The notes beneath the pieces are model-generated. The model made no database searches, had not been told where the DNA came from, and saw only the letters and a program-made list of their open reading frames with translations. The translations under genes and the position numbers were made by a program. This document shows, piece after piece, positions 6,532 to 57,642 of a stretch of 64,000 nucleotides of DNA; the first letter of the stretch is position 1, and each line of letters begins with the position of its first letter. The stretch is from Mucilaginibacter gracilis (GTDB lineage: Bacteria > Bacteroidota > Bacteroidia > Sphingobacteriales > Sphingobacteriaceae), in contig NZ_RBKU01000001.1 of the NCBI RefSeq assembly GCF_003633615.1, forward strand, positions 1 through 64,000, given 5' to 3'.

Positions 6532-6617
6532 AGGGAACGTTCCCCAAAAATGAAACCGCTCCCACCTACTTAATTTAAAGAATTGATATCCAAAACATTA
6601 TCCCATTTGTAACTTGG
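6532..6617 (+). promoter_or_regulatory. Tandem palindromic operator plus -7 box upstream of 6657
   Basis: The distal site is AGGGAACGTTCCCC (6532-6545), with a perfect 12-bp inverted core. The proximal site is TGAAACCGCTCCCA (6551-6564), starting 19 bp later. A -7-like box TAACTTGG (6610-6617; one mismatch to TAnnTTTG) begins 45 bp after the proximal site. The gene starts 39 bp downstream. The same geometry recurs at the PUL promoters. Confidence 0.7.
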
Positions 6618-17532: not shown

Positions 17533-19977
17533 TTACTTGGCAAGGTCAATCGCTATAACACTCATTCCCCAGGGTTTTATTTTCAGGTCAACAGTTCCTT
17601 TTGCAGCATTGGCCCAACTTTGATCACCTTGCAAAACAACACTCTTACCCCATTTGGTAATTTTCCCATCGCCAATTTTTGATACATCAATAGCCATGGA
17701 ACCGCTTTGTGCTAAAGGAGACTGGTTCAAAACCAATACATACAACTTATCTTTCTGCAGTCCCAAGGCACCAACATATTCAAAGTTGGGATTTTCACTT
17801 TTAAGCAAGCCTACGGGCATACACAGGTTGGCCTTATTGCCATAAACATCGCCCGGCGCAAACCCATAGGATACATGCGGCCCAACCTTGGGTGTCATAA
17901 ACCCGCTCGGGAATTCCACTTTGCCGCCTGAGCGCAAATGCGCTTCGGATATTAAATAATCCGTTATCCAGCCGATCTGCCAAAAGGCATGATGCGGGAA
18001 CACTTTAGCCCCTTTAGCAACATTTTCAAGGGCGCTCCAGTAATAAATACTTTGGCCGTTCTCCGCATCAACATAGGCGTCCCTACCGCGCGCTGCAACA
18101 CGCGCCATGTGCAAAAACAAGCTATCGTTGGTCATCTCGAACATCCGGGTAAACAGGCCCGCGAAACTTGATATTAAAATAGGTCCGCCGCTGGCAGTGC
18201 CTTTAATGTGCTCGACACTCAATCCAGCTTCGGCAATTTCCCAGTCCTGGCGCTCCATGTTGCCTACTTTCTTAATTTTTGTTGTGGCAATGGGTTGGGT
18301 AAAGATCGATGTTGCGTATATTTTTGCTGCCTCTATCGCCGCCTTCTTATAATAACCGTTCTTTGTGGTTTTGTACAGTTCCAGCAGCGATTCCGAACAT
18401 TGTGCCGTGGCAAAGTCCCAGATATTACGCGCATCGCCGCATACACCTAAATAATACCCTTTATCAACACCATTCTTCACCAGCCAATCCGCACCTTTTT
18501 TTGCCGCATCCAAATATTTTTGATCGCCCAATATGCGATAAGCGATCAGTAAGCCATACCACGTTGGGCGCAAATCTTGAAGATCAGGAAAACTCAATTG
18601 ATGGCTCACCCTATCATAAGCCACATCAAAACCACCATCAGCATGTTGCCAGGCTATCAATCTATCGGCGGCAAGTTTTACGCGTTCGCGTAATTCTGGA
18701 TCGTTGGGTTTAAATAGCAACATATTACCCATATCCATTAAGGTATAATAGGTAGTGTAAAGAGGTTCTACCCAATTACCTCGTTCACTTCCCACACCAT
18801 CCTCATCAGCATATTCACCCATCGCGCCGCCGTAAAAAAAACCTTTATCAGTTTCCTGTATCGCCAATTTATAATTACGCACAAAAGGCAGGTGCTTTTG
18901 CATGGCCGGATTATTTCCGGCGAAAGCCAGCATACAAAACGCACCTACATCCGCGTTTTTCTGCCCGTTGGCACCAATTTGCAATCCCTTGCATTCCCAG
19001 GTTGTCCAGTTTGATTTTTTATCGTTTTGTAGATAATCCTGCATCAGGCTGACCCTTTCGGATAGTGAGCGTTTTTCCTGCTGTATGTTCAGCATGTTCG
19101 AAAACTGGTAGATATCATTTACCGCATGCGTAAAAACCGGGAACCAATCCGCTGCCTGTATCGAATACCGGAATTTGAAAGCAACAGTTTCTCCTGGATT
19201 GATCAACGAGCCAACCTGACCCAAAACCGGAGAATAAGCCACAGGTGTTAATTGGTTATGGCGATCCATGGTGGACATGCCAACTTTATTCAATCCCTTT
19301 GTGATCGAATCTTTCTCGTACGAATCTGCCCCCATTCCCGGGTCAGGTATGACCGCCAAGGTGACTTTATCTTTTGTGGTTAACATTGGGCTTAATGTCA
19401 TGGTGTTACGCTCTTTAGCCAAAGCCGGCACCGACGGCAAACCCATACTGTATTTGGTGGCCAAACCAACATCGTTCTGTATTTCGCGGCCGTACCAGTT
19501 ACCCGGGATCATCCCCCACGATAAATTATTAGGCTCAAGTACCGCAACAGTTGGCGTCCCTATTGAAAACGAACCTCTAAGTTTAGCTTTTACCATAATT
19601 TCGACATGGATATCGGTAGGATAATTGGGATCGATCTTCCACGTTGATTCCATGACGCCAAAACGCAATTCCTGGGTGAACGTAATCGTACCATCTGCTG
19701 ATTTTTTTGCGATTGACGGGTAAAAGGTATATGCTTTTCCTTCTATATCCTGATCAACCAATGCTGGCGCAGGTTTACGGTTTAAGTATATAATAGTAAA
19801 AGCTCCCGATGGATTAGCCAATGTTTTGCCACCCGCATTAATACTGCTGATATGCCAGCCATCTTTCTCCTGTGTCCAGGATACTTTTAACTGTTTGGAT
19901 GATAAACTAATATCGTACTGGGCATATAAAGCCTGCGATGTAAGCCACAAAAAGCAGGTAACTAATGATCTTTTCAT
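17533..19977 (-). CDS. Secreted beta-sandwich plus (alpha/alpha)-toroid protein, candidate glycosidase
   Basis: The protein has 814 residues with a signal peptide ending near LYAQ. The first 300 residues are beta-rich. From about 310 to 680 there is a helical repeat region with tyrosine- and tryptophan-rich loops typical of six-hairpin glycosidases (WQHADGGFDVAYD, DLRPTWYGLLIAYRIL, FFYGGAMGEYADEDG, HHAFWQIGWITDYL). The last 120 residues are again beta-strands. I do not recognise a CAZy family. It is the first gene of the fucosidase operon, right behind a tandem operator. An exo-glycosidase or lyase role is likely but unproven. Confidence 0.75.
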   Translation of the reverse strand: MKRSLVTCFLWLTSQALYAQYDISLSSKQLKVSWTQEKDGWHISSINAGGKTLANPSGAFTIIYLNRKPAPALVDQDIEGKAYTFYPSIAKKSADGTITFTQELRFGVMESTWKIDPNYPTDIHVEIMVKAKLRGSFSIGTPTVAVLEPNNLSWGMIPGNWYGREIQNDVGLATKYSMGLPSVPALAKERNTMTLSPMLTTKDKVTLAVIPDPGMGADSYEKDSITKGLNKVGMSTMDRHNQLTPVAYSPVLGQVGSLINPGETVAFKFRYSIQAADWFPVFTHAVNDIYQFSNMLNIQQEKRSLSERVSLMQDYLQNDKKSNWTTWECKGLQIGANGQKNADVGAFCMLAFAGNNPAMQKHLPFVRNYKLAIQETDKGFFYGGAMGEYADEDGVGSERGNWVEPLYTTYYTLMDMGNMLLFKPNDPELRERVKLAADRLIAWQHADGGFDVAYDRVSHQLSFPDLQDLRPTWYGLLIAYRILGDQKYLDAAKKGADWLVKNGVDKGYYLGVCGDARNIWDFATAQCSESLLELYKTTKNGYYKKAAIEAAKIYATSIFTQPIATTKIKKVGNMERQDWEIAEAGLSVEHIKGTASGGPILISSFAGLFTRMFEMTNDSLFLHMARVAARGRDAYVDAENGQSIYYWSALENVAKGAKVFPHHAFWQIGWITDYLISEAHLRSGGKVEFPSGFMTPKVGPHVSYGFAPGDVYGNKANLCMPVGLLKSENPNFEYVGALGLQKDKLYVLVLNQSPLAQSGSMAIDVSKIGDGKITKWGKSVVLQGDQSWANAAKGTVDLKIKPWGMSVIAIDLAK

Positions 19978-20047: not shown

Positions 20048-20134
20048 CAATATTACTCTTTATATAATTCAAATTGTTAAAAACACCCCGTATAACAAAT
20101 GTGGGAATGTTCCCAATACATGGGAATGCTCCCA
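20048..20134 (-). promoter_or_regulatory. Tandem operator and -7 box for the fucosidase operon
   Basis: TGGGAATGTTCCCA (20102-20115) and TGGGAATGCTCCCA (20121-20134) start 19 bp apart. On the minus strand the -7-like box TAATATTG (20055-20048; one mismatch) starts 46 bp beyond the proximal site. The downstream gene starts at 19977. Confidence 0.82.
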
Positions 20135-22110: not shown

Positions 22111-23145
22111 ATGAAGAACCACCAGATCACCATTATTGACATTGCCAAAGAACTAAACATTTCTAAATCAACCGTTTCAAGGGCTCTGACGGGTCACCCA
22201 AACGTAAAATCGGAAACCAGGAAGGCCGTACTTGACCTGGCCGAAAAAATGGATTACCAGCGAAATATGCTTTCTATTAGTTTGATCACTAATAAAAGCT
22301 ATACCATTGGAATTATCGTCCCCGAATTCATGACCTCTTTTTTTCCGCAGGTTGTCGTTGGTGCGCAGGAAGAAGCCGCCAAAGCGGGATACAACGTGAT
22401 CATCAACCAATCCAATGAGAACTACAAAACTGAGGTAGCAAATTCTAAGGTCATGTTGTCCAGCCAGGTTGATGGGGTATTGGTTTCGATGAGTAAAGAA
22501 ACCCGGAATTACGATCACCTGAAGAAATTTCAGCGCAAAGGCATCCCAATCGTATTTTTCAACCGCGTTTGCGATGAGATGATGGTGCCGAAAGTAGTGG
22601 TTAATGACCATGACGCGGCTTTCAGAGCGGTCGAACATTTAATACAAACAGGCCATAAACGCATAGCGCATTTAGCCGGGCCCGACAGCTTGGCCATCAG
22701 CCGCAAAAGATTAAATGGTTATTTAGATGCCTTAAAAAAATACGATATACCGTTTTCCGAAGACCTCGTGATACAGTACGATCTGACCTTAAGCAAGGTT
22801 AAAATTTATATCAAACACCTGATGAGCTTAGATCCTCGTCCTGATGCCTTATTCGCGGTAAACGACCCTACTGCCATCGAGGCTATGCAGGTGATCAAAA
22901 AAATGGGACTACGCATTCCGGAGGATGTTGCAATTGTGGGATTTGGAGATAATTATGGTTCAAGTTTTATCGAACCCAGCTTAACTACGGTTAGCCAGCC
23001 TGTACAGGAAATTGGCCGGACCGCCATGACCTTGCTCTTGGGAATGATCAATAAAGATATGTCGCAATGGAAGGCAGTAACGAAATCACTGGAGGCCAAG
23101 CTCATCATCCGTAATTCGAGCAAAGCAAATAAAAAAACGCTTTAA
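22111..23145 (+). CDS. LacI/GalR-family transcriptional regulator
   Basis: The protein has 344 residues. The helix-turn-helix and hinge helix lie at residues 5-57 (IIDIAKELNISKSTVSRAL), followed by the periplasmic-binding-protein-like sensor domain (IGIIVPEFMTSFFPQVV to VSQPVQEIGRTAMTLL). LacI-family operators are 14-16-bp palindromes with a central CpG or TpG, which is what the repeated TGGGAAYGYTCCCA sites look like. It is the only regulator of this type in the window and sits in the middle of the PUL, divergent from the symporter. It is therefore the best candidate to read these sites. The operator position upstream of the core promoter hints at activation (inference). Confidence 0.92.
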   Translation: MKNHQITIIDIAKELNISKSTVSRALTGHPNVKSETRKAVLDLAEKMDYQRNMLSISLITNKSYTIGIIVPEFMTSFFPQVVVGAQEEAAKAGYNVIINQSNENYKTEVANSKVMLSSQVDGVLVSMSKETRNYDHLKKFQRKGIPIVFFNRVCDEMMVPKVVVNDHDAAFRAVEHLIQTGHKRIAHLAGPDSLAISRKRLNGYLDALKKYDIPFSEDLVIQYDLTLSKVKIYIKHLMSLDPRPDALFAVNDPTAIEAMQVIKKMGLRIPEDVAIVGFGDNYGSSFIEPSLTTVSQPVQEIGRTAMTLLLGMINKDMSQWKAVTKSLEAKLIIRNSSKANKKTL

Positions 23146-23146
23146 C

Positions 23147-25423
23147 CTAATAACACCTGATTGCGAAAACCGCGGCCGGCACATTTGCCGATGGGTGTTC
23201 TACCACTATCGTAAGTTTACTGGTGGTAATCGGTTTATCGAACCGGATCGTATTGCGCGACTGGTAGTTGCCTGTTTTGGAATATATCACCTTATTATGA
23301 TCATCACATATTTTATAATTACGGACACAGAATGGCATAACCGTTTCCGGATGTGTCATGAGCACAGATTCCATGGGATGATCAAAATCGGTATCAAACC
23401 AGAGCTCTATTTTATTGATCTGTTGCGGTATCTCCCACTGCACCGTAATGGCAGGTTCAGCATCATTTAGATCAGCGGCCCAGGCGTTCGGCTGAGTAAC
23501 GGGCCTGTCAATCCCATTCCTAATATTTTCAATGCCAAAAACAGCCAGGCCGGGCTCTATTTTTAAAGCTATATTTTGCCCTTCCGGGCGGCGCTCAGGG
23601 CACCAAAATTCAAACTCATCAACCCCGATATCTTCCGGAGGCACCTGTTTTCCATAATTTGATACCGCTTTATTGACAAGATTAAATACCGATAATATAC
23701 CGCTGACACGCTGATGAGAGCGATACAGTTTAACTAAAGGATTTTTCAGAAAGGTTAGAAAAGCGTATGTATCATCCTCTAATTGCACTGAAAAATCTGC
23801 CTGAATGCAATTACGCCCCGGCTGTATATTAAAAGTTTGTTTGGCTACGGTCACATCAGGTGTGAAATTTCCCTGCCTGCCACTCAGACGAAGCTCTACC
23901 TCTAATTCACCATACCCGTCCGAATCGGCATGAAATACAATAGCGGGTACTTCCCCTTTGCCAAACGGTAGCATTTGCGCGACGTCAATATCCAGTTCGC
24001 GCCTGCTGTTACCTTCCGGCAATTCTGTTAATACGAGTTCGCTTGAGGCGCTTAATTTTGCAAATTGAACCAAGTCGTCCTTATCTTTCAAAACTATACC
24101 TGGTATATGTTGACCATTTTTCAACAGATTATGCTGTAGTTCACCTATCAAACCCTTATTGTAAATATCAGCCGGCACAAGGCCCTTGTCCTTACACAAT
24201 TGAGCCGCCAATGCAACGGCCTGCGCGCAATAGGCCCCTGTAGCCATTACCCTTGTAGAACCAAAAGCCACATGTGTAGCGCTGATAATACGCCCGGTTA
24301 AAAACAGGTTATTGATATCTTTACTGTATAAACTACGGTAAGGGATCTGGTAAAGCCCTTTACTGTGCCACTGGTTACAGCCGGGCTTTTCACTGAAGAT
24401 TCCGTCAGCGGGATGCAGATCTATTGACCATCCTCCGTAAGCCACCGCATCATCATGTGCGCGCTGGGCAATAATATCCTGTTGCTTGATGATATAGTCG
24501 CCCATAAAACGGCGGCTTTCGCGTTTACCGGGTATCATACCGACCCACTCCAGGGTCAAATTTTCAGCTTCCGGAAACTCGCCCGAGTTCTTGATATAGT
24601 TCCAGGCACCGTAAACCACCTTCCACAGCTCCCATTTAATTTTTTCGGTATCGTGTATAGTATCTAAGCGCCCCCCATATTCAAGCCACCATAATTTGCA
24701 ACCGTAGTCTTTTGTATTAAAAGACCGGAACTTGGGTATCTGTGTAATATCGGCCATGGCAAAGTCCGGAGCATGATATTTTACAGGTTTTCCGCTATCC
24801 TTGCTATAAAAATAAAGGCTGTGGCCCAATAACTCCCCATACGCCTTTGATGGCGCGAATTTTTCATCAAACTCTTGCCGGTTTTCTGCTCCCATCCTAA
24901 ATGAAGCACCGGATAAAAAGCCTATGATACCATCGCCTGATGCATCACAAAATAAAGGCGCCCTTAATTCATACTCGGTTGAATTTTGACTGCAAAAACC
25001 GTTCACCTGCGAAATGGTACGATCGTCAGATTTTAACAAACTATGCACCGAAGTGTTTAACAATAAAGTGATATTGGGTTCGCTTACCACTTTATTTAAT
25101 AAAATAACGTCAAATATCAGCGGATTACCCTCCGGGTTTTTATAAGTATTTTCAACTAATATTTCATCAACCAGTCCGCCTTCGCGCGCCCAACGGTTGT
25201 TATTGCCCATATGCGATGTCGCGCCTAATATCCACAGTCTAACCTCGCTCGAAGAATTACCGCCCAGGACAGGCCTGTCCTGCACCAATACCACTTTTAA
25301 CCCGGCGCGTGCCGCCGTAACGGCGCCGCATACACCGGCAAGGCCACCGCCAACGATAACAAGGTTGGCAGTCATGCGCTCAACCTTTAATTCCCTCGAA
25401 GATGTAAAATTCTCTTTTATCAT
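23147..25423 (-). CDS. FAD-dependent oxidoreductase with C-terminal discoidin-like region
   Basis: The protein has 758 residues. The dinucleotide-binding motif is VIVGGGLAGVCGAVTAARAG (22-41), followed by VLGGNSSSEVR, typical of the FAD_oxidored family. A second FAD-contact segment is DASGDGIIGFLSGASFRMGAE, and a third NNLFLTGRIISATHVAFGST. From about 590 to the end there is a beta-sandwich resembling F5/8 type C domains. No signal peptide is seen, so it is likely cytoplasmic. It has its own operator and -7 box inside the 3' end of the preceding gene. It may oxidise an imported sugar; the true substrate is unknown. Confidence 0.85.
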   Translation of the reverse strand: MIKENFTSSRELKVERMTANLVIVGGGLAGVCGAVTAARAGLKVVLVQDRPVLGGNSSSEVRLWILGATSHMGNNNRWAREGGLVDEILVENTYKNPEGNPLIFDVILLNKVVSEPNITLLLNTSVHSLLKSDDRTISQVNGFCSQNSTEYELRAPLFCDASGDGIIGFLSGASFRMGAENRQEFDEKFAPSKAYGELLGHSLYFYSKDSGKPVKYHAPDFAMADITQIPKFRSFNTKDYGCKLWWLEYGGRLDTIHDTEKIKWELWKVVYGAWNYIKNSGEFPEAENLTLEWVGMIPGKRESRRFMGDYIIKQQDIIAQRAHDDAVAYGGWSIDLHPADGIFSEKPGCNQWHSKGLYQIPYRSLYSKDINNLFLTGRIISATHVAFGSTRVMATGAYCAQAVALAAQLCKDKGLVPADIYNKGLIGELQHNLLKNGQHIPGIVLKDKDDLVQFAKLSASSELVLTELPEGNSRRELDIDVAQMLPFGKGEVPAIVFHADSDGYGELEVELRLSGRQGNFTPDVTVAKQTFNIQPGRNCIQADFSVQLEDDTYAFLTFLKNPLVKLYRSHQRVSGILSVFNLVNKAVSNYGKQVPPEDIGVDEFEFWCPERRPEGQNIALKIEPGLAVFGIENIRNGIDRPVTQPNAWAADLNDAEPAITVQWEIPQQINKIELWFDTDFDHPMESVLMTHPETVMPFCVRNYKICDDHNKVIYSKTGNYQSRNTIRFDKPITTSKLTIVVEHPSANVPAAVFAIRCY

Positions 25424-25441: not shown

Positions 25442-25527
25442 CAAATTAAATAGTATTCTCAAAGGCCTTTCTTTGATTACGGCGATAAACATTGTGGGAA
25501 CGTTTCCAAAGCTTGGGAACGTTTCCA
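25442..25527 (-). promoter_or_regulatory. Tandem operator inside the 3' end of an SGNH gene
   Basis: Two identical sites TGGGAACGTTTCCA (25495-25508 and 25514-25527) start 19 bp apart. The minus-strand -7-like box TTAATTTG (25449-25442; one mismatch) starts 45 bp beyond the proximal site and overlaps the stop codon of the upstream SGNH gene. The FAD oxidoreductase begins at 25423, leaving a very short leader. Confidence 0.78.
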
Positions 25528-35089: not shown

Positions 35090-35175
35090 CAAATATAGCT
35101 GCGTATCACATCCACATCCTTTTTCCGGACGCCTTATCTACTTGGGAATGTTCCCATTTTTTGGGAACGCTACCA
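35090..35175 (-). promoter_or_regulatory. Tandem operator and perfect -7 box for the susCD operon
   Basis: TGGGAATGTTCCCA (35143-35156) and TGGGAACGCTACCA (35162-35175) start 19 bp apart. The minus-strand -7 box TATATTTG (35097-35090) matches TAnnTTTG and starts 45 bp beyond the proximal site. I see no good -33 TTG between them, as expected for an activator-dependent promoter. Confidence 0.85.
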
Positions 35176-38740: not shown

Positions 38741-40720
38741 TCAGTTGATTGTGGTTGGGAATTCGGTGATGCGCAGCCTGGTGCTGCCATAAGGTACCAG
38801 GGTTATCCTATGGATCGTCTTTTCAGTATCAAACTGACCGGGAGCTGGCAATTCAGGTGTGAACCTGTTTTCCAATAAGGTCCATTGCTTAACTTTCCTG
38901 GCCGGAACCTTGATGATGACCGGTGATTTGCCCGGATCCAGGGGATAGCCTGTACTGCCTGTCTTAATAACCTCGATCTTTTGACTGAAGCTGGCTTCAT
39001 TTACAGCCAAAGCATAGTTCCAGTTCCCGGCAGGGCGGATATCCAGGGCCGGGAAGTTCGGATCGGGTGAATGCTTGCCACCCAGATTAGCATATGTAGC
39101 GGTATCGGTTTTTACCTTTTCGGGAATGGCAAAGGCATACAATAGAGGGCCGCGTTCTACAGTAACACCCTGCCCAGCATTGACCAGCTTGGCATCCATT
39201 GGTAATTGCAGCGTGATTTTATCGCCTTTGGTAAATTTGCGGTTTATTGTAACAAATGTTCCGCTCTTTAGCGCAGCAACATACGGTTTACCATTGATGG
39301 TTACCGATGGCGATGAACACCAGCCAGGAATGCGGAACATAAACGGCATATCAACAGGTTTTTCAGTTTCAAAAGTAAAGCCGATCAGATCCGAGAACGG
39401 ATAGCTTGTTGCTTCCTTAATAATCACCTGTTGGCCACTGTTCAACACTACTTTTTCTTCCGACGGGCCGTATAGCGCAGCTATCGGGTTACCTTTCGCA
39501 TCGCGCATCCACATCCGCGCCACGTAATTAGGCATCATCCGGTGAACATTGCCCGCGCAACATTCAGTTTCGTGGCAAGGCCAGTAGGCCATCCAGGTAG
39601 AGCCGTGCATGAATTTGTTCTGGTTAGAGTTACCTGTGGCGATGAACTGGTTAACGCTTGAAAAATATTGCAACTGTTTAAAATCCTTCGACACACAACC
39701 CGGTCCGGCGTTGAATACAGCCTTCTCGATATGGTCGGCCCAGGTAGCATCGCCAGTTGCCATCAACAGATACCCAACCGCCCACGTATAATCAGTGATG
39801 TCGCAGGTCTCGTGGCTGTGCAAAGGGTTCTTACCGGCCAAAAACTCGCTCGAACTGGGTACGCCATCGGGCAACATATGATCACGATCCAGTTTTCTCA
39901 TCACGTTAACAGCGGCATCCAGGTACTCCTTTTTTCCGGTAAACGCATATAGGATAGCAGGCAATTTAGCCATCTCCATATAGGTAACGCCGTGCAATAC
40001 AACACTATCGGGAGAAAGGGAGTTTTTCAGATTCAATTCAAAACCGCCCAGGGCGTAAGCTTTCTCTGAAAGGTCGAGCAGCTTTTGATCACCTGTCTTC
40101 CCGTAGGTCCATAAAGCACCCTCAATGTTGACAATGGCACGTTTAAACTTGCCCAGTTCTTCAGGGGTATAACTTAAATAATGTTTGTGCAGGGCCGCAA
40201 TGATCTTTGGATCGCCGGTAGCCATATATTCGGCTTCCATGGCCCTGAAAAATACAGCGATGGGCCATTGGCTGACGAATAATCCCGGCCCAAGCCTGCC
40301 GTTAGGCTGTACATGTTCCAGCGTGTAGTTGATCCCGGCGCGGCCTTTGGCTATCAGTTCAGCATCGTTCAATTCAAAACCTAAACGCAATAATCCGTCT
40401 GTATAATAAGCGGTTTGTTCGTAACGCCACCAGTTGTCACCATGTTTTTCGCCGATACGTTCGATACTACCGGCCCAAAGGCAGGTATTGAACGGATACG
40501 ATAACACATCAGGATGCCCGGTCAAACCCGAACGCTGACGGTTTAGATATTCAAGAAGCCAACCTTTTGCGGAATTAGCCGTCATAGGGCTTTCGCGGAA
40601 TTTATCGAAACGGGGCACCAGTTCATCGGTCGGCTCCACCCGAGTTAAAGGCGGTTTTACCGCAAATATCCCAAGGCAGGCCATGGCGAAAATCGTGATC
40701 AGTAAAAATAGCTTTTTCAT
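38741..40720 (-). CDS. GH127-family (beta-L-arabinofuranosidase-like) enzyme
   Basis: The protein has 659 residues with a signal peptide (LLITIFAMACLGIFA). An (alpha/alpha)6 barrel is followed by two beta-domains. GH127 enzymes use a zinc site and a cysteine nucleophile. The matching residues here are Glu304 and Cys306 (HSHETCDITDYTW) and Cys382, Cys387 and Cys388 (WPCHETECCAGNVHRMMP). The family releases beta-L-arabinofuranose or related sugars. The gene lies 7 bp from each neighbour in the GH3 operon. Confidence 0.87.
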   Translation of the reverse strand: MKKLFLLITIFAMACLGIFAVKPPLTRVEPTDELVPRFDKFRESPMTANSAKGWLLEYLNRQRSGLTGHPDVLSYPFNTCLWAGSIERIGEKHGDNWWRYEQTAYYTDGLLRLGFELNDAELIAKGRAGINYTLEHVQPNGRLGPGLFVSQWPIAVFFRAMEAEYMATGDPKIIAALHKHYLSYTPEELGKFKRAIVNIEGALWTYGKTGDQKLLDLSEKAYALGGFELNLKNSLSPDSVVLHGVTYMEMAKLPAILYAFTGKKEYLDAAVNVMRKLDRDHMLPDGVPSSSEFLAGKNPLHSHETCDITDYTWAVGYLLMATGDATWADHIEKAVFNAGPGCVSKDFKQLQYFSSVNQFIATGNSNQNKFMHGSTWMAYWPCHETECCAGNVHRMMPNYVARMWMRDAKGNPIAALYGPSEEKVVLNSGQQVIIKEATSYPFSDLIGFTFETEKPVDMPFMFRIPGWCSSPSVTINGKPYVAALKSGTFVTINRKFTKGDKITLQLPMDAKLVNAGQGVTVERGPLLYAFAIPEKVKTDTATYANLGGKHSPDPNFPALDIRPAGNWNYALAVNEASFSQKIEVIKTGSTGYPLDPGKSPVIIKVPARKVKQWTLLENRFTPELPAPGQFDTEKTIHRITLVPYGSTRLRITEFPTTIN

Positions 40721-40727
40721 AAGTATT

Positions 40728-43136
40728 TTAATTTATAACTGTAAACTCCTTGCTCAATCTCAAATCGGTTGATGAGCCTCCCACCATCACCCGGAATTTA
40801 CCGGGCTCAACCGTCCAGTTCATATTTTTATCCAGCAATGCCAAATCATCTGGATGCAAGGTAAATTTCAAGGTACGGGTCTCGCCAGGTTCAAGGCTGG
40901 TCCGCTCAAAACCGCGCAGATCATAATCATAAGTAGTCACGCTGCTCACTACGTCTTTCAAGTATAGCTGCACCACTTCGTCTCCTTTGCGTTTCCCGAT
41001 GTTTTTGATTTGCACCGATATATGGATATCGGCATTGGGTTTAATGATCTCTGCGTCTACCTCCAGATCGCTATATGCGAATTCGGTATAGCTCAAACCA
41101 AAGCCGAAAGGATATAGGGCGCCGTTCACGCTGCTTTTACCATAACCATTGTTGCCGCTGCTCGCCTGCCCTGCTTGCGAAGCTGGTTTGAACGGAAAAT
41201 TATACTCGATTTGCCCTACGGTTTTTGGGAATGTGACCGTCAGCCTGCCACCGGGATCGTTGTCGCCAAACAAGGTTTCGGCCACTACCCTGCCACTTTG
41301 CGGGCCGGGAAACCAGGCTTCGAGTATCGCAGGAATATACCTGTCTTCCCAGTTCACGGTAAGCGGCTGGCCGTTGATCATGACCATAACCACCGGTTTG
41401 CCGGTGGCTTGTAAGGCCATAAGCAACTGTAATTGCCTTCCGGGTAAATTTAAGCAGGTACGCGAAAGACCCTCGCCTACCTGCTTTTCGCTTTCGCCGA
41501 CAACAGCTATGATCACATCGGCCTGCCTGGCTTTGGCGACTGCTTCGTTAATACCGTTTTGCTCGGTTTTGCTTAAGGGTGTTGGTATAATCTCGCTTTC
41601 CGGCCAGGTAGCGTCGGTCACCTCGCAGCCTTTGGCGTAACCAACTTTGGCTTTTGCGCCTACATAATTGGTAATGCCTTCCAGTACCGTAATCACTTTG
41701 TTATTTGATGGTCCGTATCGGCTCGTTGTATAATTTCCTTCTGTAGCCAGGGGGCCTGTTACCAGGATATTTTTAAGTTTACTCACATCCAGGGGCAGCA
41801 GGTTATGTTCGTTCTTTAACAATACCATTGATTTCCGGTTCATTTCGAGCGCCAAAGCTTCGCTTGCCGCGGAATGTACGATTTTATTCGCTGCCACTGT
41901 ATCAGCAACGTAAGGCTGGTCAAATAAGCCAAGCTTGAATTTAACACGCAGCACATCCCCTACGCAGGCATCCAGGGTCTTCATCGATACACTACCTTCG
42001 TTCACCAACTCCCGTAAGGGCATAATATAATCGCCGGGCCAGGTAAAGTTTGTACGCACGTTGAGGCCTGCTTCGATCGCTTGTTTAACCGAAGCTTTGT
42101 AATCTTCGGCTACGTGGTGTTTTCGGTATAGAAATTCCAAAGCCTCACTATCCGATACCACATAGCCGGTAAAGCCATATTGCTGACGTAAAAGTTCGGT
42201 CAAAAAATAATGACTCCCCGTTATCGGCACACCGTCCCAGTCATTATAACTGCTCATGACACCCATTGGCGCAGCTTCCTCTATCACCCTGCGGAATGGG
42301 TATAAATACAATTGATGCAGTTCCCTCGGCGCCACATGCGGATCGGTACGGGCATCGCCATCGCGCCCTCCTTTAGGCACGCTGTAAACGGCATAATGTT
42401 TAAGGGTAGATGCTACCCCCTGCTCCTGAACGCCCAATACCATTTGCTTGCCTAATTCGGCTATTAAAAACGGAGACTCGCCATAACATTCCGGTACGCG
42501 GCCCCAGCGCTGGTCACGCGCAGGATCCAGTATCGGCGTATAGATATTGGTATAACCCAAGGCTTTGGCTTCGGCACCTACAATGTTTCCCATTTTACGT
42601 ACCAAAGCTTTATCCCAGGTGCTACCTATATTGATCGGTGCGGGAAAAGGTGTAGCCCTGTCATGGCATAAGCCATGGATACCTTCGTTGGTAAAATCGA
42701 CAGGGATGCCTAAACGCGTTTCTTCAACAAACCATTTCTGAATAATATTGATGGCCCAGGCATGTTTACTAAACGGATAGGAAAACTGTGTTTGGGCCTT
42801 GCTGTTATAGGCCAGGCTGTTGAGGTCCTCGTCGATATTGGCGATACCGTCCTTCCAGATCTCGTTCTTCCATCCCGGGGTAGGCAGTTCGTCCTTTAGA
42901 ACGCGCCCATAGCCGTAGAGTGTAGCAGTCTGGCATGTTTTTTCATCCAATGTCATTTGAGCCAGCAAATCGGCTACCCTTTTTTCAATTGGCTGGGCGG
43001 GATCTTCAAATATGTCCTTTTTACCATTTTTATTAAAATCTATCCAGCCCTTTCTATATATATTAGGTTGCTGCGCAAACAACATTGTACAGCTGCTCAC
43101 CACTACGGTTATCATTAAAAGCGTTCTTTTAGCCAT
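40728..43136 (-). CDS. GH3 beta-glycosidase (first of two)
   Basis: From the ATG at 43136 the protein has 802 residues and a signal peptide (LLMITVVVSSCTMLFAQ). The TIM barrel, the alpha/beta sandwich and the fibronectin III-like domain of GH3 are present. The nucleophile Asp lies in FTGYVVSDSEALEFLY. The catalytic region includes KHYAVYSVPKGGRDGDARTD. GH3 enzymes of this layout act as beta-glucosidases or beta-xylosidases. It lies 64 bp after the other GH3 and 7 bp before GH127. Confidence 0.92.
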   Translation of the reverse strand: MAKRTLLMITVVVSSCTMLFAQQPNIYRKGWIDFNKNGKKDIFEDPAQPIEKRVADLLAQMTLDEKTCQTATLYGYGRVLKDELPTPGWKNEIWKDGIANIDEDLNSLAYNSKAQTQFSYPFSKHAWAINIIQKWFVEETRLGIPVDFTNEGIHGLCHDRATPFPAPINIGSTWDKALVRKMGNIVGAEAKALGYTNIYTPILDPARDQRWGRVPECYGESPFLIAELGKQMVLGVQEQGVASTLKHYAVYSVPKGGRDGDARTDPHVAPRELHQLYLYPFRRVIEEAAPMGVMSSYNDWDGVPITGSHYFLTELLRQQYGFTGYVVSDSEALEFLYRKHHVAEDYKASVKQAIEAGLNVRTNFTWPGDYIMPLRELVNEGSVSMKTLDACVGDVLRVKFKLGLFDQPYVADTVAANKIVHSAASEALALEMNRKSMVLLKNEHNLLPLDVSKLKNILVTGPLATEGNYTTSRYGPSNNKVITVLEGITNYVGAKAKVGYAKGCEVTDATWPESEIIPTPLSKTEQNGINEAVAKARQADVIIAVVGESEKQVGEGLSRTCLNLPGRQLQLLMALQATGKPVVMVMINGQPLTVNWEDRYIPAILEAWFPGPQSGRVVAETLFGDNDPGGRLTVTFPKTVGQIEYNFPFKPASQAGQASSGNNGYGKSSVNGALYPFGFGLSYTEFAYSDLEVDAEIIKPNADIHISVQIKNIGKRKGDEVVQLYLKDVVSSVTTYDYDLRGFERTSLEPGETRTLKFTLHPDDLALLDKNMNWTVEPGKFRVMVGGSSTDLRLSKEFTVIN

Positions 43137-43200
43137 ATTTTTGTCGGTTCGTTTAACGGTGTCCTGCAATACACATCTTAATCCACTTAACGGTAGCCTC

Positions 43201-45366
43201 TTAGTTAACCGTTATCACTTTTGTTTGCCTGACATCTTTTGATGAACTTGCAACCAGGAATTTATATTTACCCGGTTCAACTTCCCATTTCATTGTCTTT
43301 TCGTTAAAAAAAGCCAGATCGCTGACATATACAGGGATTTTTACAGCCACCTGTTTACCAGCACCCACCCATACTTTAGTGAATGCTTTCAGTTCCTTTT
43401 CGGGACGCTCAACTTCCGAGTTCTCTTTGGCCACGTATAACTGTACAACCTCTTTACCTCCGTATTTACCGGTATTTTTCAACTGTACCGTCAGGGTGAT
43501 CTTTTCGCCGGGTTTGTAGGCACCCTTATCGGCAGACAGGCCAGAATAAACATAGTTAGCGTACGATAAGCCATAACCGAAAGGGTATAAGGGCTCGATC
43601 TTTTTGCTATCAAACCAACGATAACCAACCAAAATACCTTCTTTATAATCTGCATTGAGGTTATCGTATGGAAAAGTATGCAAGGCATGTGCCGGAGAAT
43701 CTTCAAGCTTTACCGGAAACGTAAACGGCATTTTGCCTGATGGATTTACTTTGCCGCTCAATACGTCGGCCAAAGCATTCCCACCCTCACAGCCGTTATA
43801 CCATTGCCATACGATTGTGTGGTTGTTTTTTTTGATCTCGTTCAGATCATAAGGCGCTCCGCCAACCACGATCACAATGGTATTGGCGTTGACAGCCGAT
43901 ACAGCATTCACCAACTCCTGCTCGGCAAATGGCAGGTGAAGCGTTGTCCTGTCGTGCCCTTCACTCTCATACTCCCGGTTCCCTCCAATAAATACAATGG
44001 CAGCATCCCGGTTTTTAGCAAGATCAGCAGCTTGTTTGATCAGGTCCCAGTTCGGTTTTTCGGCCTTTTCTTTTTGTTCGTCAGTGTATTTAGCACCATA
44101 ATCCGGAGCGTAACCTTGCGCAAATTGAATATCAACCTGACGACCGAATTTATTTTTGAGACCCTGCAGATTAGTAACTTCGTACCGTGCTTTCACCCCG
44201 GCTCCGATACCACCGCGGTGAAATTGCAGTGTTGCGTTATCGCCGATAACAGCCAGGCTTTTGATTACCGCAGTATTGAGCGGCAACAGGTTCTTTTCGT
44301 TCTTTAACAATACAATAGCTTCTGAGGCGATATCATAGGCGGCTTTAGCATGTGAAGCAGTATTTAAACTACCGGTAGGTTTACTGCGATTCATACTCGT
44401 ATGGTACATGACCCAGAGCATATGATACACTTTTTCGTCAATCAGTTTTTCGCTCACATAGCCCAACCTCACCGAATCAATCAGAGGTTTGGCAAAGTAA
44501 TACTCGCCATAGGGTTTATCTGTTCCCATCTCAACGTCCAAGCCATTTTTAGCCGCTTTTACACTACTGTGCGTACCGCCCCAATCCGACATCACGACCC
44601 CCATAAAACCCCATTGCCTGCGTAATAAATCTTGGAGCAGATAGCTGCTTTCCGAACAGAAATCGCCCCTAAATCTATTGTAAGCCGTCATAATCACCCA
44701 GGCATTACCTTTGGTTATTGCGGCTTTAAATGCAGGCAGGTATATCTCCTGTAAAGCACGTTCGCTGACCAATACGTTGACCTTGCGGCGGTCTGTTTCC
44801 TGGTTGTTAACCGCATAATGTTTGACGCAGGCTGCTACTCCTTGTGTTTGGATCCCGGCAACTGCAGCTACGGCCAGCTGCGAATTAAGGAACGGGTCTT
44901 CGGAGTAATATTCATACGTGCGCCCATTGAGCGGTGTACGGGTGATGTTAAAGGCCGGCGCCAAGATCACATCCTTATGGCGGGCACGGGTTTCTTCCCC
45001 TAAAGCCACACCAAAACGGCGCGCCAGGGCAGGGCTCCAGGTAGCGGCCAGTGCTGAGCCGTTAGGGAAAAAAGTGGCTGAATCGGTGGTTAGTTCCGCC
45101 GGTGCCCAGTCGTCTTTGACTTCTTCCCTCACACCCAGGGGGCCATCGTCGCTCATCAATTGCGGCACTCCCAGCCGCTTTACACCCGGCGAGGAAAATT
45201 TGGAGTCAGCATGCAGCATTCCAATTTTTTCTTCCAGGGTCATTCTCCTGATGAGCGCTTTAATCCTGGCGTCCGATATCATGGCCGGTTTGGTTTGGGC
45301 CGTAGCTGTAGTGATACAAAAGATGACCGCGCAAACAGTAGCGTAGCCTAGCATGTTTATTTTCAT
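43201..45366 (-). CDS. GH3 beta-glycosidase (second of two)
   Basis: From the ATG at 45366 the protein has 721 residues; signal peptide ending near TTATAQ. GH3 marks are VKHYAVNNQETDRRKVNVLV and the nucleophile Asp in GVVMSDWGGTHS, then the C-terminal domain with PLYPFGYGLSYANYVYSG. It is clearly different from the neighbouring GH3, so the two probably cut different linkages. It lies 31 bp after the SGNH gene. Confidence 0.92.
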   Translation of the reverse strand: MKINMLGYATVCAVIFCITTATAQTKPAMISDARIKALIRRMTLEEKIGMLHADSKFSSPGVKRLGVPQLMSDDGPLGVREEVKDDWAPAELTTDSATFFPNGSALAATWSPALARRFGVALGEETRARHKDVILAPAFNITRTPLNGRTYEYYSEDPFLNSQLAVAAVAGIQTQGVAACVKHYAVNNQETDRRKVNVLVSERALQEIYLPAFKAAITKGNAWVIMTAYNRFRGDFCSESSYLLQDLLRRQWGFMGVVMSDWGGTHSSVKAAKNGLDVEMGTDKPYGEYYFAKPLIDSVRLGYVSEKLIDEKVYHMLWVMYHTSMNRSKPTGSLNTASHAKAAYDIASEAIVLLKNEKNLLPLNTAVIKSLAVIGDNATLQFHRGGIGAGVKARYEVTNLQGLKNKFGRQVDIQFAQGYAPDYGAKYTDEQKEKAEKPNWDLIKQAADLAKNRDAAIVFIGGNREYESEGHDRTTLHLPFAEQELVNAVSAVNANTIVIVVGGAPYDLNEIKKNNHTIVWQWYNGCEGGNALADVLSGKVNPSGKMPFTFPVKLEDSPAHALHTFPYDNLNADYKEGILVGYRWFDSKKIEPLYPFGYGLSYANYVYSGLSADKGAYKPGEKITLTVQLKNTGKYGGKEVVQLYVAKENSEVERPEKELKAFTKVWVGAGKQVAVKIPVYVSDLAFFNEKTMKWEVEPGKYKFLVASSSKDVRQTKVITVN

Positions 45367-45397
45367 ATTGTTATTTATATTCAATCGTATTATTCAA

Positions 45398-46672
45398 TTA
45401 ATTTTTCAATTTTCCCAATAACAAAAGCCAACCTGCATAGCAGGAGTTTTCGTTGTATTTAGCCAGATCACCGATAATGCCGTTGCCTTTTCTAAGAATG
45501 GCCATTTTATCCTGCGGCCGTGTTGATACCCTAAATTCCACCTCATGTTCTCCCTGAGGCATCATGGGCAAACAGAAATAATTGGAATGGTAATAGGTAC
45601 CATATTTGTCAAATCGCGTGTATAACTGGGGCGCCCCGCCGTCGCTAACTACACTGTACTGACCGCTCCCCGGACCCATGATATCGTAAATACCAGCCAT
45701 CCGGCCTTTAAACCTGACTTTTATAGCGGCTCCCCCATTATCCGATTTAATCAGACATGGAAACTTTGACCTGAACGTTTTCGCTACCGTATCCGCATCG
45801 GTCAATTCCTGCCAGTCGCCGGTTTTGGTTAACGCTTTAACTGAGATCATTTGCGCCTCCTCCCAATTATCAGCCACGTAGGGTTTACCTAACTTATGTT
45901 TAAAAGTTTCGGTATTGTTTTGAATTAACTTTAAGGAGCGTGTTAACACTTCGGTGTAAATTTTGTGTCCGGTTTGGGCCAAGGGGTGTACGTTATCTAC
46001 AGAGAAAACAATTTTACCCAGGTTTTCTTCGGGTTTACCCTGGAATATCAATCGGTTGTCCTTGATCAGTGAAATAACTTCGGGGCCAAATTTGACCGAT
46101 GGAATATCATAAAACAGGGCCACATGTTCCATGGCAAGCATGGACGGCCAAAGCTTTCCAGCCTGCAGGGTCGGCACCATATTACCCGACAAGGTGTATA
46201 CAAAACAGATATCTGTTTTGGCATCAGCACGCCATACTTGCCTGACAATGCCTTCCATGGTTTGATAAATACGTTCTGGTGCCAGGCCGCCATCGTTTAC
46301 TGCGAATTCGACAAAAACAAGGTCGGGATGGAAGTTAATCACGTCGTTCTTCACCCTGAAAACACCTAAGTCGGAACCGGTTCCGCCTACCCCCGCGTTG
46401 ATGTGTTTAATCTCAGCCTGCGGATATTGATCCTGAAACCATTTTAACGATTGCTCCCGCCAACCGCCTTGCGCAGCCGTTATACTCCCCCCCAGGTAAG
46501 CGATGCTAACCGCCTTGCCTGACTTTACCTTAGCAAAAAAGTTCGGCAGGCCTTTGCGCGCATTGAATTCCTGCAAATTATCCAGGGTATCTGTTTGTGC
46601 TTTCAACGTTGTTGAAAGCAGGGTAACCATGCCCGCAAGCAAAACAAGTGATGATATGATTTTTAACTTCAT
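45398..46672 (-). CDS. SGNH/GDSL esterase with C-terminal beta-domain
   Basis: The protein has 424 residues with a signal peptide (SLVLLAGMVTLLSTTLKAQ). The SGNH blocks are YLGGSITAAQGG, NAGVGGTGSDLGVFR, VEFAVNDGG and VDNVHPLAQTGH. It is a paralogue of the lipoprotein at 26244-27608, but exported by a normal signal. It probably deacetylates the incoming glycan. It precedes the GH3 pair in the operon. Confidence 0.85.
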   Translation of the reverse strand: MKLKIISSLVLLAGMVTLLSTTLKAQTDTLDNLQEFNARKGLPNFFAKVKSGKAVSIAYLGGSITAAQGGWREQSLKWFQDQYPQAEIKHINAGVGGTGSDLGVFRVKNDVINFHPDLVFVEFAVNDGGLAPERIYQTMEGIVRQVWRADAKTDICFVYTLSGNMVPTLQAGKLWPSMLAMEHVALFYDIPSVKFGPEVISLIKDNRLIFQGKPEENLGKIVFSVDNVHPLAQTGHKIYTEVLTRSLKLIQNNTETFKHKLGKPYVADNWEEAQMISVKALTKTGDWQELTDADTVAKTFRSKFPCLIKSDNGGAAIKVRFKGRMAGIYDIMGPGSGQYSVVSDGGAPQLYTRFDKYGTYYHSNYFCLPMMPQGEHEVEFRVSTRPQDKMAILRKGNGIIGDLAKYNENSCYAGWLLLLGKLKN

Positions 46673-46684
46673 TTTTTATTGATA

Positions 46685-46879
46685 TTACCAATAAACAAAC
46701 TGGTAGGGGTCCGAAAAATTTATATAAAGGCGAATAAAAACTAACTTTCTGTACCTGGCTTGAAACAGCGCCGGACGGCTTGTTTTGTGATCATTCCCAG
46801 GGGAAGATTGATCTAAAAAAGAACGCATAACCAGCGAACTGCTGTGACCTGTATCCCCATATTTAAGCCAAACGTGCAT
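46685..46879 (-). CDS. Short frame of doubtful status
   Basis: A 64-codon frame fills the gap between the alpha-CTD-like gene and the SGNH gene. An AAAGGA sequence lies about 8 bases before its ATG. The product (basic, Ser-rich, ending FSDPYQFVYW) matches nothing I know. It may be noise or the tail of a decayed gene. Confidence 0.22.
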   Translation of the reverse strand: MHVWLKYGDTGHSSSLVMRSFLDQSSPGNDHKTSRPALFQARYRKLVFIRLYINFSDPYQFVYW

Positions 46880-46890
46880 GGTGCTATCCT

Positions 46891-47241
46891 TTAGTTAACA
46901 TGATTCGCCGCGCCAAGCTCCCAGGTCTTTTGATCATCTGTAGATTCTTCGACGTTAACCAGCTGCATATCCTGAAGATATTTTTGGACCAGGGACCGCC
47001 CTTTGACCCCGATGCCAGGGGCAGTGATCAATTGCACGCGGGACAGCTTCACCAGATGTGCAACATGAGAAACCCCCATAAACAAAAGCGCATTTTTCAT
47101 TCTTACGGTAAAATCCTCCACCTCCGTTATGGGTACGTTCAAGACAGAGCCGCTGCCGCTGCTTTCCGTATCATGATCGAAGAAACGGGAATTGACATCA
47201 TCATCGTATCCGTTTTTATACTCGATAAATAAGTAATCCAT
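46891..47241 (-). CDS. Stand-alone RNA-polymerase alpha-CTD-like protein
   Basis: The protein has 116 residues. Residues 37-97 align with the C-terminal domain of RpoA: PITEVEDFTVRMKNALLFMG, then HLVKLSRVQL and GIGVKGRSLVQKYLQDM. The two main DNA-contacting residues of the E. coli domain (Arg265, Asn268) have equivalents in Arg47 and Asn50 (TVRMKNAL). The polymerase-binding N-terminal domain is absent. Acidic N- and C-terminal tails flank the domain. It is the first gene after the tandem operator at 47373-47405, so it is predicted to be co-induced with the GH3/GH127 operon. It may tune transcription by binding UP-element-like DNA or a regulator (inference). Confidence 0.68.
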   Translation of the reverse strand: MDYLFIEYKNGYDDDVNSRFFDHDTESSGSGSVLNVPITEVEDFTVRMKNALLFMGVSHVAHLVKLSRVQLITAPGIGVKGRSLVQKYLQDMQLVNVEESTDDQKTWELGAANHVN

Positions 47242-47319
47242 CGTTTATTCAACTATATTATTCATAAAATAATTCCAGGTTGATCAGTACCCATGGTATG
47301 GGCTATTGGTTTATCCATA

Positions 47320-47405
47320 CGAATTTAACCACAAGACAACAGTTAACAGCCCTGAACAGCCTTTATAAGGATTGGGAACGAGCCCATTTAATGGGAACGT
47401 GCCCA
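47320..47405 (-). promoter_or_regulatory. Tandem operator and -7 box for the GH3/GH127 operon
   Basis: TGGGAACGAGCCCA (47373-47386) and TGGGAACGTGCCCA (47392-47405) start 19 bp apart. The minus-strand -7-like box TAAATTCG (47327-47320; one mismatch) starts 45 bp beyond the proximal site. A leftover ATTCCCA follows at 47407. The first downstream gene is the alpha-CTD-like protein. Confidence 0.8.
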
Positions 47406-47420
47406 CATTCCCAAACATCC

Positions 47421-49361
47421 TTAAATGATCGTAATCAGGACTTCTATTTTTTTTCCTCTGAACGATAATGGAACAGCCTCTAGTCCGGGTACGAAATTGA
47501 AAACACGCCCGTTGCGGCTTGGTTCTATATCGAAGGGTACATTGGCCACCAGACGTAAAACAGCGCCCGCTTTTTCAATCCTGAGTTCACGGTCCGATAC
47601 GCGGGTTAATTTTTCGCCGCTTGCTGAAATTACCGGCAACATGTATTTTACAGGTAAAGCATCATCTGCATCACATACCGCAGTAATTTTGAATTGATCA
47701 GCTGTAAAACGGTAACTGACCTTACATCCTATCGCTGTTTTTTCATAAGGTGCCTGGCTCTCATCCACCAAGGCCGAAAAGGTTTCGAACAGGATATCGC
47801 CCCTTACTTCCTGATGTTTTACAGTGGCTTTCAGATCGTGTATATTGGTATAAAGATGTTGATCTCCGGTCAGCTGGAAACGCGGCGTAAGGCATACAGA
47901 ATAAGGATCCTTATCCCTTTGCATGTTGAAATTTTCGACCAGCTGGTAGGTGGTCATACTGGCAGTGATAACAGGGCCTACTTTTTGATGCCACAGCATC
48001 GTTAAAGCTCCGCCTGACGCGTGTCCGGATTTCATCAGGTATTCCTCATCATAAGCGGTAACCGTGCCGCGCCAGCCCCCTTTGGCAATGAGCCAGGTTT
48101 GAATATCCTTGAATTCCTTTACAACATCATCAGCTTTCAGCCGTGGTAATTGGGCCGTGTTTTGCTTCGCCGGAGATGATTTCAACAAAAGCGTGGTTAA
48201 GGCTTTACTATGGCAGAAAGTATGGTGCACACAGGGCAATTCGCCATGATCGGTATAATGTGGGCCACCATGCAATAAACCCTTTTTCGTGCACCTGTCC
48301 AGCAGTTGCGTATTGTGTAAAGCAACCTGGTAAAAAGACGGGTCATATTCCGCCATGATCGCGTAGCCGGGCTGGCAGCCATCACTCGTACGGCTTCCCC
48401 AGTAGGTCCATTTAAAATTACGTGTCCCCCAGCTGTTGTCCCAGCCGCCATCCGGGAGCATAAATTCCGCATGTGCCTTCATCGAGCGCAGAACCGTATC
48501 AAAAACCTCTTGATCTCCGGTTAGCTTCGCATATAAAACCAAAGCCTGTAATGATTCCTCAACATTGTAGCCCAGGTCCACCGAATAGCAGCCCTTGGCT
48601 GTCGGCTCCTTTTCAGGATGCCCCTCGCCATAGAGCAGGTGATCGTTAGGTGTAAAATATTGCAAGCCCTCGTGAGCTAAAGCTTTCCCTCTCGCCAGGT
48701 ATTTTGGTTCGTTGAAATACGTCCCGATTAAGGCCAGGGCGTAACTGCAAGTGATCGGGTAATTGATATTACCGGTGTGGATGGTAAAGTCCCGATATAG
48801 GAACTCAGCGGCTTTTTTTAGCCTTTCTTCCCATTTATGTTTAGTGGCTTTGTCAAGCATACCTCCAAAATGGGTCAAGGTTTCGGCCAGCATGACCGCG
48901 GTGAATACGGAGATGCCGGTCCAGTCGCTGATGACAATTTCGCTTACCCATGACCCGTCCGGCATACTTACCTTCTCCTCCATCCAATCGTACAAGCCCA
49001 TGGCAGCGTGCTGATATTTGGGGTCTTTTGTACGATGGCCTAGATACATCAGCGGTAATATGGCATCGGCGCTACGGCCATGCACGCTTGCGCATGCGGG
49101 GCATAATATACCTCCATATAAACCTGTAAAGTTCGTGTCGCTAACCTGATGGGCCAGCAATCCGTCACCCCAGCGCTTAAGCAGGTTAAATGCCAGACTG
49201 TGCAGGTCTTCGGGATCATGGGGAATATGGGCGACACCTTGATCCCGCAAAACGGTATTTTCAGGGAAATTAAAACGGGCATCAGCATGATGTGGGAGTA
49301 ACAGGCCCGAGGCGGCTAAACCGCTCCATTTTAAAAAGTTTCTTCTTCCGGTAAATTTCAT
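47421..49361 (-). CDS. Tat-exported (alpha/alpha)-barrel protein, candidate glycosidase or lyase
   Basis: From the ATG at 49361 the protein has 646 residues. The N terminus has a twin-arginine signal (GRRNFLKWSGLAASGLLLP). Residues about 40-400 show helical hairpins with conserved aromatic loops (NINYPITCSYALALIGTYFN, GCYSVDLGYNVEESLQALVL, PDGGWDNSWGTRNFKWTYWG, HHTFCHSKAL). The C-terminal 200 residues are beta-strands. The layout recalls polysaccharide lyases and unsaturated glucuronyl hydrolases, but I cannot assign a family. A Tat signal suggests a folded, perhaps metal- or cofactor-bearing protein. It is alone downstream of its own operator. Confidence 0.78.
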   Translation of the reverse strand: MKFTGRRNFLKWSGLAASGLLLPHHADARFNFPENTVLRDQGVAHIPHDPEDLHSLAFNLLKRWGDGLLAHQVSDTNFTGLYGGILCPACASVHGRSADAILPLMYLGHRTKDPKYQHAAMGLYDWMEEKVSMPDGSWVSEIVISDWTGISVFTAVMLAETLTHFGGMLDKATKHKWEERLKKAAEFLYRDFTIHTGNINYPITCSYALALIGTYFNEPKYLARGKALAHEGLQYFTPNDHLLYGEGHPEKEPTAKGCYSVDLGYNVEESLQALVLYAKLTGDQEVFDTVLRSMKAHAEFMLPDGGWDNSWGTRNFKWTYWGSRTSDGCQPGYAIMAEYDPSFYQVALHNTQLLDRCTKKGLLHGGPHYTDHGELPCVHHTFCHSKALTTLLLKSSPAKQNTAQLPRLKADDVVKEFKDIQTWLIAKGGWRGTVTAYDEEYLMKSGHASGGALTMLWHQKVGPVITASMTTYQLVENFNMQRDKDPYSVCLTPRFQLTGDQHLYTNIHDLKATVKHQEVRGDILFETFSALVDESQAPYEKTAIGCKVSYRFTADQFKITAVCDADDALPVKYMLPVISASGEKLTRVSDRELRIEKAGAVLRLVANVPFDIEPSRNGRVFNFVPGLEAVPLSFRGKKIEVLITII

Positions 49362-49382
49362 TTTGAGGGATAAATTGGCGTC

Positions 49383-49469
49383 CAAATATAGCCCCCCGAG
49401 CTACAGGTAACTTTTAACCCGAAGCATATCTTTCATTGGGAATGCTCCCATTAAATGGGAACGATTGCA
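49383..49469 (-). promoter_or_regulatory. Tandem operator and perfect -7 box between the Tat protein and the cytochrome cassette
   Basis: TGGGAATGCTCCCA (49437-49450) and TGGGAACGATTGCA (49456-49469) start 19 bp apart. The minus-strand -7 box TATATTTG (49390-49383) is perfect and starts 46 bp beyond the proximal site. The plus-strand gene at 49604 diverges from the same site, but I see no matching -7 box on that side. Confidence 0.82.
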
Positions 49470-56847: not shown

Positions 56848-56934
56848 TGGGAGTGTTCCCAATCGTTAAGCAGGGTTATAACCTGATTTTTTGGGGCTTA
56901 AAGGAGCCTGTCATATGAAAAGACAGTATATTTG
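56848..56934 (+). promoter_or_regulatory. Single operator and perfect -7 box upstream of the ECF/FecR pair
   Basis: TGGGAGTGTTCCCA (56848-56861) is intact. No copy is left at the proximal position (56867-56880). The -7 box TATATTTG (56927-56934) lies 46 bp after that empty slot, exactly where it would be if the tandem were complete. The next gene is the ECF sigma factor at 57037. Confidence 0.65.
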
Positions 56935-57036
56935 GTTACCAATTACGTTCAACTGATTTAAGCCTGTACCGATTACAGGCTAATCTGCGACCGATCTGAT
57001 GATCTGTTGATTTTAAACTTAAGTTGTGATTTCCCC

Positions 57037-57642
57037 ATGGCGCCGAGTGACTATACTGTACTTGCCGATAATGAGCTTGTCCTCCTCCTGAACCAAGGCG
57101 ATCTGGCAGCCTTTAACGAGATCTATCACCGGTATTGGGGACGCCTTTTCGACGCTGCTTACAAAGGCGTACGCGATGCCGGCGTGTGTGAAGATCTGTT
57201 ACAGGACATTTTTGTTAAGCTCTGGGAAAAGCGTTTCCGGGTAAGCTTTACCAAAGGCCTGGGCAATTACCTTTATACCGCAGTCAAATATAAGGTACTT
57301 GACCATTATCGGGCCGCCTTGGTCAGGGAAAACTTTCGGGGAACAAGCCAGCCAGCAGCAGATTACGACAACTCAACCCTGGAACGCATTTTATTGGTCG
57401 ACCTGATCCGCCACATCGAGATTCTGGTTCATCAACTGCCTGATAAATGCAGGTTTATTTACAGGCTGAGCCGTATCGAGCACAAAAGCAACAAAGAAAT
57501 TGCCAGCCTTTTGGATATCTCTGAAAAAACAGTCGAGGGGCACCTGACCAAAGCTTTGAGCAGGCTAAAACCCGCTTTATATGCCGGCTATTTATTCCTG
57601 ATCGCACTTGTTTTTGTATTTCATATCCATCCGCCCAGGTGA
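57037..57642 (+). CDS. ECF sigma factor of the second PUL
   Basis: From the ATG at 57037 the protein has 201 residues; a longer TTG start at 57007 is less likely. Region 2 is FNEIYHRYWGRLFDAAYKG and CEDLLQDIFVKLWEK; region 4 is QLPDKCRFIYRLSRIEHKSN and SEKTVEGHLTKALSRLKP. A C-terminal hydrophobic end (YLFLIALVFVFHI) is common in Bacteroidota members. It pairs with the FecR gene 130 bp downstream and the STN-type SusC at 60286, the normal sigma/anti-sigma/transporter signalling chain. Confidence 0.9.
   Translation: MAPSDYTVLADNELVLLLNQGDLAAFNEIYHRYWGRLFDAAYKGVRDAGVCEDLLQDIFVKLWEKRFRVSFTKGLGNYLYTAVKYKVLDHYRAALVRENFRGTSQPAADYDNSTLERILLVDLIRHIEILVHQLPDKCRFIYRLSRIEHKSNKEIASLLDISEKTVEGHLTKALSRLKPALYAGYLFLIALVFVFHIHPPR

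Follow-up and report, generated by a model that had tools for sequence, protein, structure and literature searches.

Class I activators meet the C-terminal domain of RNA polymerase subunit RpoA (alpha-CTD) upstream of the core promoter (class definition in PMC4495994). In Bacillus, Spx, a protein of the ArsC family, binds alpha-CTD (PMC2801614). Small stand-alone proteins with an alpha-CTD-like or helix-hairpin-helix (HhH) domain are common across the Sphingobacteriaceae, often in unrelated contexts. Among several further types in the family are fusions to a zinc ribbon and an MKEhEIDhYL type of 110-128 aa. The literature searched, which covered few subscription papers, holds no description of stand-alone alpha-CTD proteins.

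The window analysed here, a stretch of 64 kb from Mucilaginibacter gracilis, encodes a protein that invites comparison with all three. It resembles the alpha-CTD of RpoA (PF03118) in its predicted fold, helix order and equivalents of Arg265, Asn268, Gly296 and Lys298, but it has neither assembly domain nor tether, scores below the Pfam cut-off, and departs from the cell's own RpoA in overall sequence and in the 285-288 patch. With the other Sphingobacteriaceae proteins it shares a single small alpha-CTD-like domain (67-128 aa); those, however, are mostly of the zinc-ribbon plus HhH, MKEhEIDhYL or 67-aa HhH kinds, often have unrelated neighbours, and a LacI operator regulon is shown for none of them. 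Similar to Spx, the protein would act at the interface of activator, alpha-CTD and DNA, whereas Spx binds alpha-CTD and this protein resembles alpha-CTD itself (PMC2801614).

The gene and its neighbours

The 116-aa ORF (47241→46891) opens with ATG and is present as a single copy in the 6.66-Mb genome according to a genome search, the true RpoA CTD being encoded at 430157-430348. Its codon use is gene-like, with a codon score of 0.266 as compared to 0.209-0.323 for 24 neighbouring genes. The antisense ORF 46900-47232 was ruled out as a gene by its codon score of 0.083, and the DNA at 46673-47420 has no repeat elsewhere in the genome. A gap of 218 bp with a weak promoter inside separates the gene from that of the GDSL esterase (Table 1). 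Most of this gap (46673-46890) is occupied by a 64-codon ORF beginning 8 nt past the stop of the alpha-CTD-like gene; its codon score of 0.125 is lower than that of genes, and it is likely not coding.

Table 1. Coordinates of the genes, domains and promoter elements discussed, with strand and basis or remark
Feature	Position	Strand	Basis or remark
Stand-alone alpha-CTD-like protein gene, 116 aa	46891..47241	-	ORF call, Pfam, codon use
Alpha-CTD-like domain, residues 32-97 (start ~31)	46951..47148	-	Sequence and AlphaFold/PDB comparison
N-terminal extension, 31 residues, low-confidence/disordered in models, without assembly domain	47149..47241	-	
Upstream operator TGGGAACGTGCCCA, about -83	47392..47405	.	
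Downstream operator TGGGAACGAGCCCA, about -64	47373..47386	.	
Candidate -7 element TAAATTCG	47320..47327	-	5/6 consensus positions; 78 bp from upstream operator edge
Degenerate operator-like site, 2 mismatches, before GDSL gene	46786..46799	.	
Candidate -7 element TAAATTTT of GDSL/GH3 operon	46715..46722	-	77 bp from site 46786..46799
Tandem operator of SusC gene	35143..35175	.	-7 TATATTTG at 78 bp
Tandem operator of gene 17533-19977	20102..20134	.	-7 at 79 bp
Tandem operator of gene 23147-25423	25495..25527	.	-7 at 78 bp
Tandem operator of gene 47421-49385, degenerate second half	49437..49469	.	-7 TATATTTG at 79 bp
LacI-family regulator, likely binder of tandem operators	22111..23145	+	Pfam; 67% identical G388 ortholog
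GDSL-type esterase, next downstream gene	45398..46672	-	Pfam PF13472
Two GH3 genes and one GH127 gene	38741..45384	-	

Identity of the domain

The preliminary description had recognised in this ORF an alpha-CTD with equivalents of Arg265 and Asn268 and without the assembly domain, and sequence comparison bears out these points. The top Pfam match is PF03118 (RNA_pol_A_CTD; E 1e-4, residues 32-90), with 22.4 bits against a gathering cut-off of 23.8 bits; since this score is borderline, the protein is termed alpha-CTD-like and not a Pfam member. NCBIfam rpoA models match it by their C-terminal ends only (E 5e-6), and the matches of a PDB sequence search are nearly all RpoA CTDs, albeit weak (best E 0.04). 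In the alignment, R47, N50, G78 and K80 correspond to the DNA-contacting Arg265, Asn268, Gly296 and Lys298, with changes at three other positions (Lys271 to Leu, Asn294 to Gly and Ser299 to Gly). At positions 285-288, where RpoA contacts activators, the protein has SRVQ, compared with DVAD in the cell's own RpoA. The assembly/dimerisation domain of RpoA is missing from the 116 residues, as the assembly part is unmatched and residues 1-31 have low pLDDT. BLASTP, which detects no similarity to RpoA of the same genome, ruled out that the gene is a recent copy of its rpoA. A PHROGs search gave nothing convincing.

Whether or not the alignment includes RpoA of the same genome, AlphaFold predicts four helices at residues ~46-54, 60-65, 68-73 and 78-91, arranged as in alpha-CTD in a model of moderate confidence (domain pLDDT about 72-85). 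The best structural matches are RpoA CTDs (Z 12.1; 67 residues superposed at an rmsd of 1.4), and these still come first without the RpoA row (Z 10.4). The models thus support an alpha-CTD-like fold, and, taken together, sequence and predicted structure confirm that ORF 46891-47241 encodes a divergent alpha-CTD-like domain. Behind the RpoA CTDs, a few Z units lower, rank the HhH domains of Rad51/Dmc1. This short distance lends something to the doubtful explanation that the protein is a small HhH protein of alpha-CTD fold doing another nucleic-acid- or protein-binding job, one that does not involve polymerase, as cargo of the regulon. The many stand-alone proteins of this fold in the family, with their varied architectures and often unrelated contexts, point the same way, as do relatives that do not conserve the canonical DNA-contact residues. 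However, RpoA CTDs are consistently the best match by both sequence and structure, and the nearest relatives are hosted by glycan loci.

Promoter geometry and the LacI-type regulon

Palindromes resembling TGGGAAYGTTCCCA are found repeatedly before genes of the cluster. Whole-genome matches to the exact single-site pattern TGGGAAYNNTCCCA are confined to the window, and so are those to the tandem form with 19-bp spacing in the 6.66-Mb genome, with 0 tandem matches for a control pattern. In 7 of 8 operator promoters, the distance between the upstream edge of the operator and the beginning of a TAnnTTTG-like -7 element (B. fragilis consensus, as cited in PMC7366714) is 78-79 bp; the binomial p is about 3e-11 at the intergenic rate, for an offset noticed before testing, and 0 of 5000 random-offset permutations equalled it. 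If transcription starts about 12 bp after the beginning of the -7 element, the exact offset being inferred, this spacing would place the operator centres at about -64 and -83, which is an activator-like geometry as read from sequence.

The alpha-CTD-like gene has the promoter of the cluster, with a tandem site at 47373-47405 and TAAATTCG at 78 bp, and by this sequence pattern it is part of the LacI-type operator regulon. The operator centres lie 138 and 158 bp upstream of its ATG, and their distance from the inferred start of transcription is about 64 and 83 bp; the claimed distance of 50-90 bp from the start therefore holds for the latter and fails for the former. It is also uncertain whether the gene heads the operon, owing to the 218-bp gap with its weak promoter. 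As the GDSL/GH3 operon has this weaker promoter of its own, the alpha-CTD-like gene may be transcribed alone and is probably a separate transcription unit.

Three further sites deserve mention. The TTG start listed for the 654-aa ORF 47421-49385 sits within the TATATTTG -7 element, so the true start is probably further downstream; the 654-aa protein has no Pfam match. A gene for an ECF-type sigma factor (56848-57642) is preceded by a single operator with a -7 element TATATTTG at 79 bp, which would tie it to the same LacI-type regulon. Outside the main cluster, an operator-like site AGGGAACGTTCCCC at 6532-6545, before ORF 6657-7142, is paired with another at 19-bp spacing, and a -7 element follows at 78 bp.

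An independent genome, G388, repeats the geometry at exactly 78 bp; there the site is flanked by a SusC-like gene and by a LacI gene that shares 67% identity with the one at 22111-23145. Because the G388 operator adjoins this orthologous gene, the LacI-family regulator of the window is the likely binder of the tandem operators, and their position near -64/-83, upstream of the core promoter, suggests that it is an activator.

Relatives and selection

Relatives were sought in the genus, the family and the genus Pedobacter. Neither the genus (150 genomes) nor the family (400 genomes) contains a close ortholog. The four nearest relatives are in G240, G236 (Pedobacter frigiditerrae), G356 and G221, with a looser pair in G146 and G315. 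Scanning genome contigs with the single protein gave zero matches, and an alignment-based scan gave Pedobacter frigiditerrae as its sole match; plasmids and phages held none.

The relative in G236/G356 adjoins an HTCS in a SusC/D PUL, that in G240 a GH2/esterase operon and a GntR gene, that in G221 GH84 and an AraC gene, and that in G146/G315 GH2. Counting each of the two pairs once and including the window, a glycan enzyme or PUL-type regulator adjoins the gene at 5/5 loci, compared to about 6/17 loci that served as controls and encode other alpha-CTD-like proteins of the stand-alone kind (Fisher p about 0.02, computed by hand, with partly post hoc grouping). The nearest relatives thus do recur beside glycan/PUL genes or their regulators, but the neighbourhood signal is modest since the controls are also often beside regulators or sugar enzymes.

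Values of dN/dS are 0.09 for G236/G356 and 0.08 for G146/G315, so these relatives are maintained proteins; purifying selection acts where it was testable, i.e. in two pairs. The Arg265 equivalent is Leu in G240 and G221 (2/4 nearest relatives), where Lys298 is Phe/Gln. Rather than these two residues, the nearest group keeps Asn268, Gly296 and the G-R pair at 299-300. In G388, with its matching LacI and operator, no alpha-CTD-like copy was detected, and in G405 none lies directly upstream of the esterase homologue, where the upstream gene is 17 bp away (G405 only). Accordingly, the protein is accessory to the regulon and not required. The missing close ortholog and the G405 arrangement would also suit an orphan gene of little or no present function, kept in the cluster by chance. 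Such an origin is rather unlikely in view of the intact ORF with gene-like codon use, the gene's own tandem operator promoter and the purifying selection on its relatives.

A possible feedback modulator

The reading preferred here, held tentatively on sequence and models, is that the detached alpha-CTD-like protein, co-induced with the regulon by the LacI-type activator, feeds back on that regulon. The LacI-type regulator would activate the glycan-degradation regulon from its two operators near -64 and -83, turning on the alpha-CTD-like gene together with the surrounding glycan-degradation genes. The detached protein would then bind DNA beside the operators and/or touch the activator, compete with the polymerase-tethered alpha-CTD and so damp activator-dependent transcription. 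We infer expression of the gene; its binding to promoter DNA or activator is putative, as is the damping. Support for feedback comes from the RpoA-CTD-like fold, the partly kept DNA-contact residues, the operator unique to the cluster and its fixed distance from the -7 element, reproduced in G388, and additionally from the glycan/PUL loci of the nearest relatives and the purifying selection in two pairs. In contrast, a simple decoy seems weakened by the missing G388 copy, the loss of Arg265 in 2/4 relatives and the changed 285-288 patch.

Geometry and fold fit equally well a positive helper that sits between the operators and the core promoter, bridges or stabilises the LacI-type activator and amplifies transcription. 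The window copy keeps Arg265, Asn268 and Lys298, and the gene's operator promoter is that of the regulon. Nevertheless, the protein is untethered to polymerase and G388 has the matching LacI and operator with no copy detected, and amplification is considered improbable. Returning to feedback, the protein may tune how strongly the surrounding sugar-degradation genes are expressed, as it shares their LacI-type switch.

Overall, the earlier interpretation is partly supported. Besides the points against a simple decoy, it is weakened by the gene's probable status as a separate transcription unit and by how common stand-alone alpha-CTD-like proteins are in the family, often among unrelated genes. 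Its statement that no PUL regulator of this kind is described agrees with the literature searched, in which few subscription papers were covered. It is somewhat unlikely, although conceivable, that a whole Sphingobacteriaceae family of detached alpha-CTD-like proteins modulates activator-driven glycan promoters by competing with the polymerase alpha-CTD. With tandem operators at a fixed distance from the -7 element, the idea of a LacI-type activator regulon in Bacteroidota can be put to a direct test. If feedback holds true, a free copy of a polymerase domain would tune the very promoters whose activators use that domain, and the feedback would arise without any new DNA-binding specificity.
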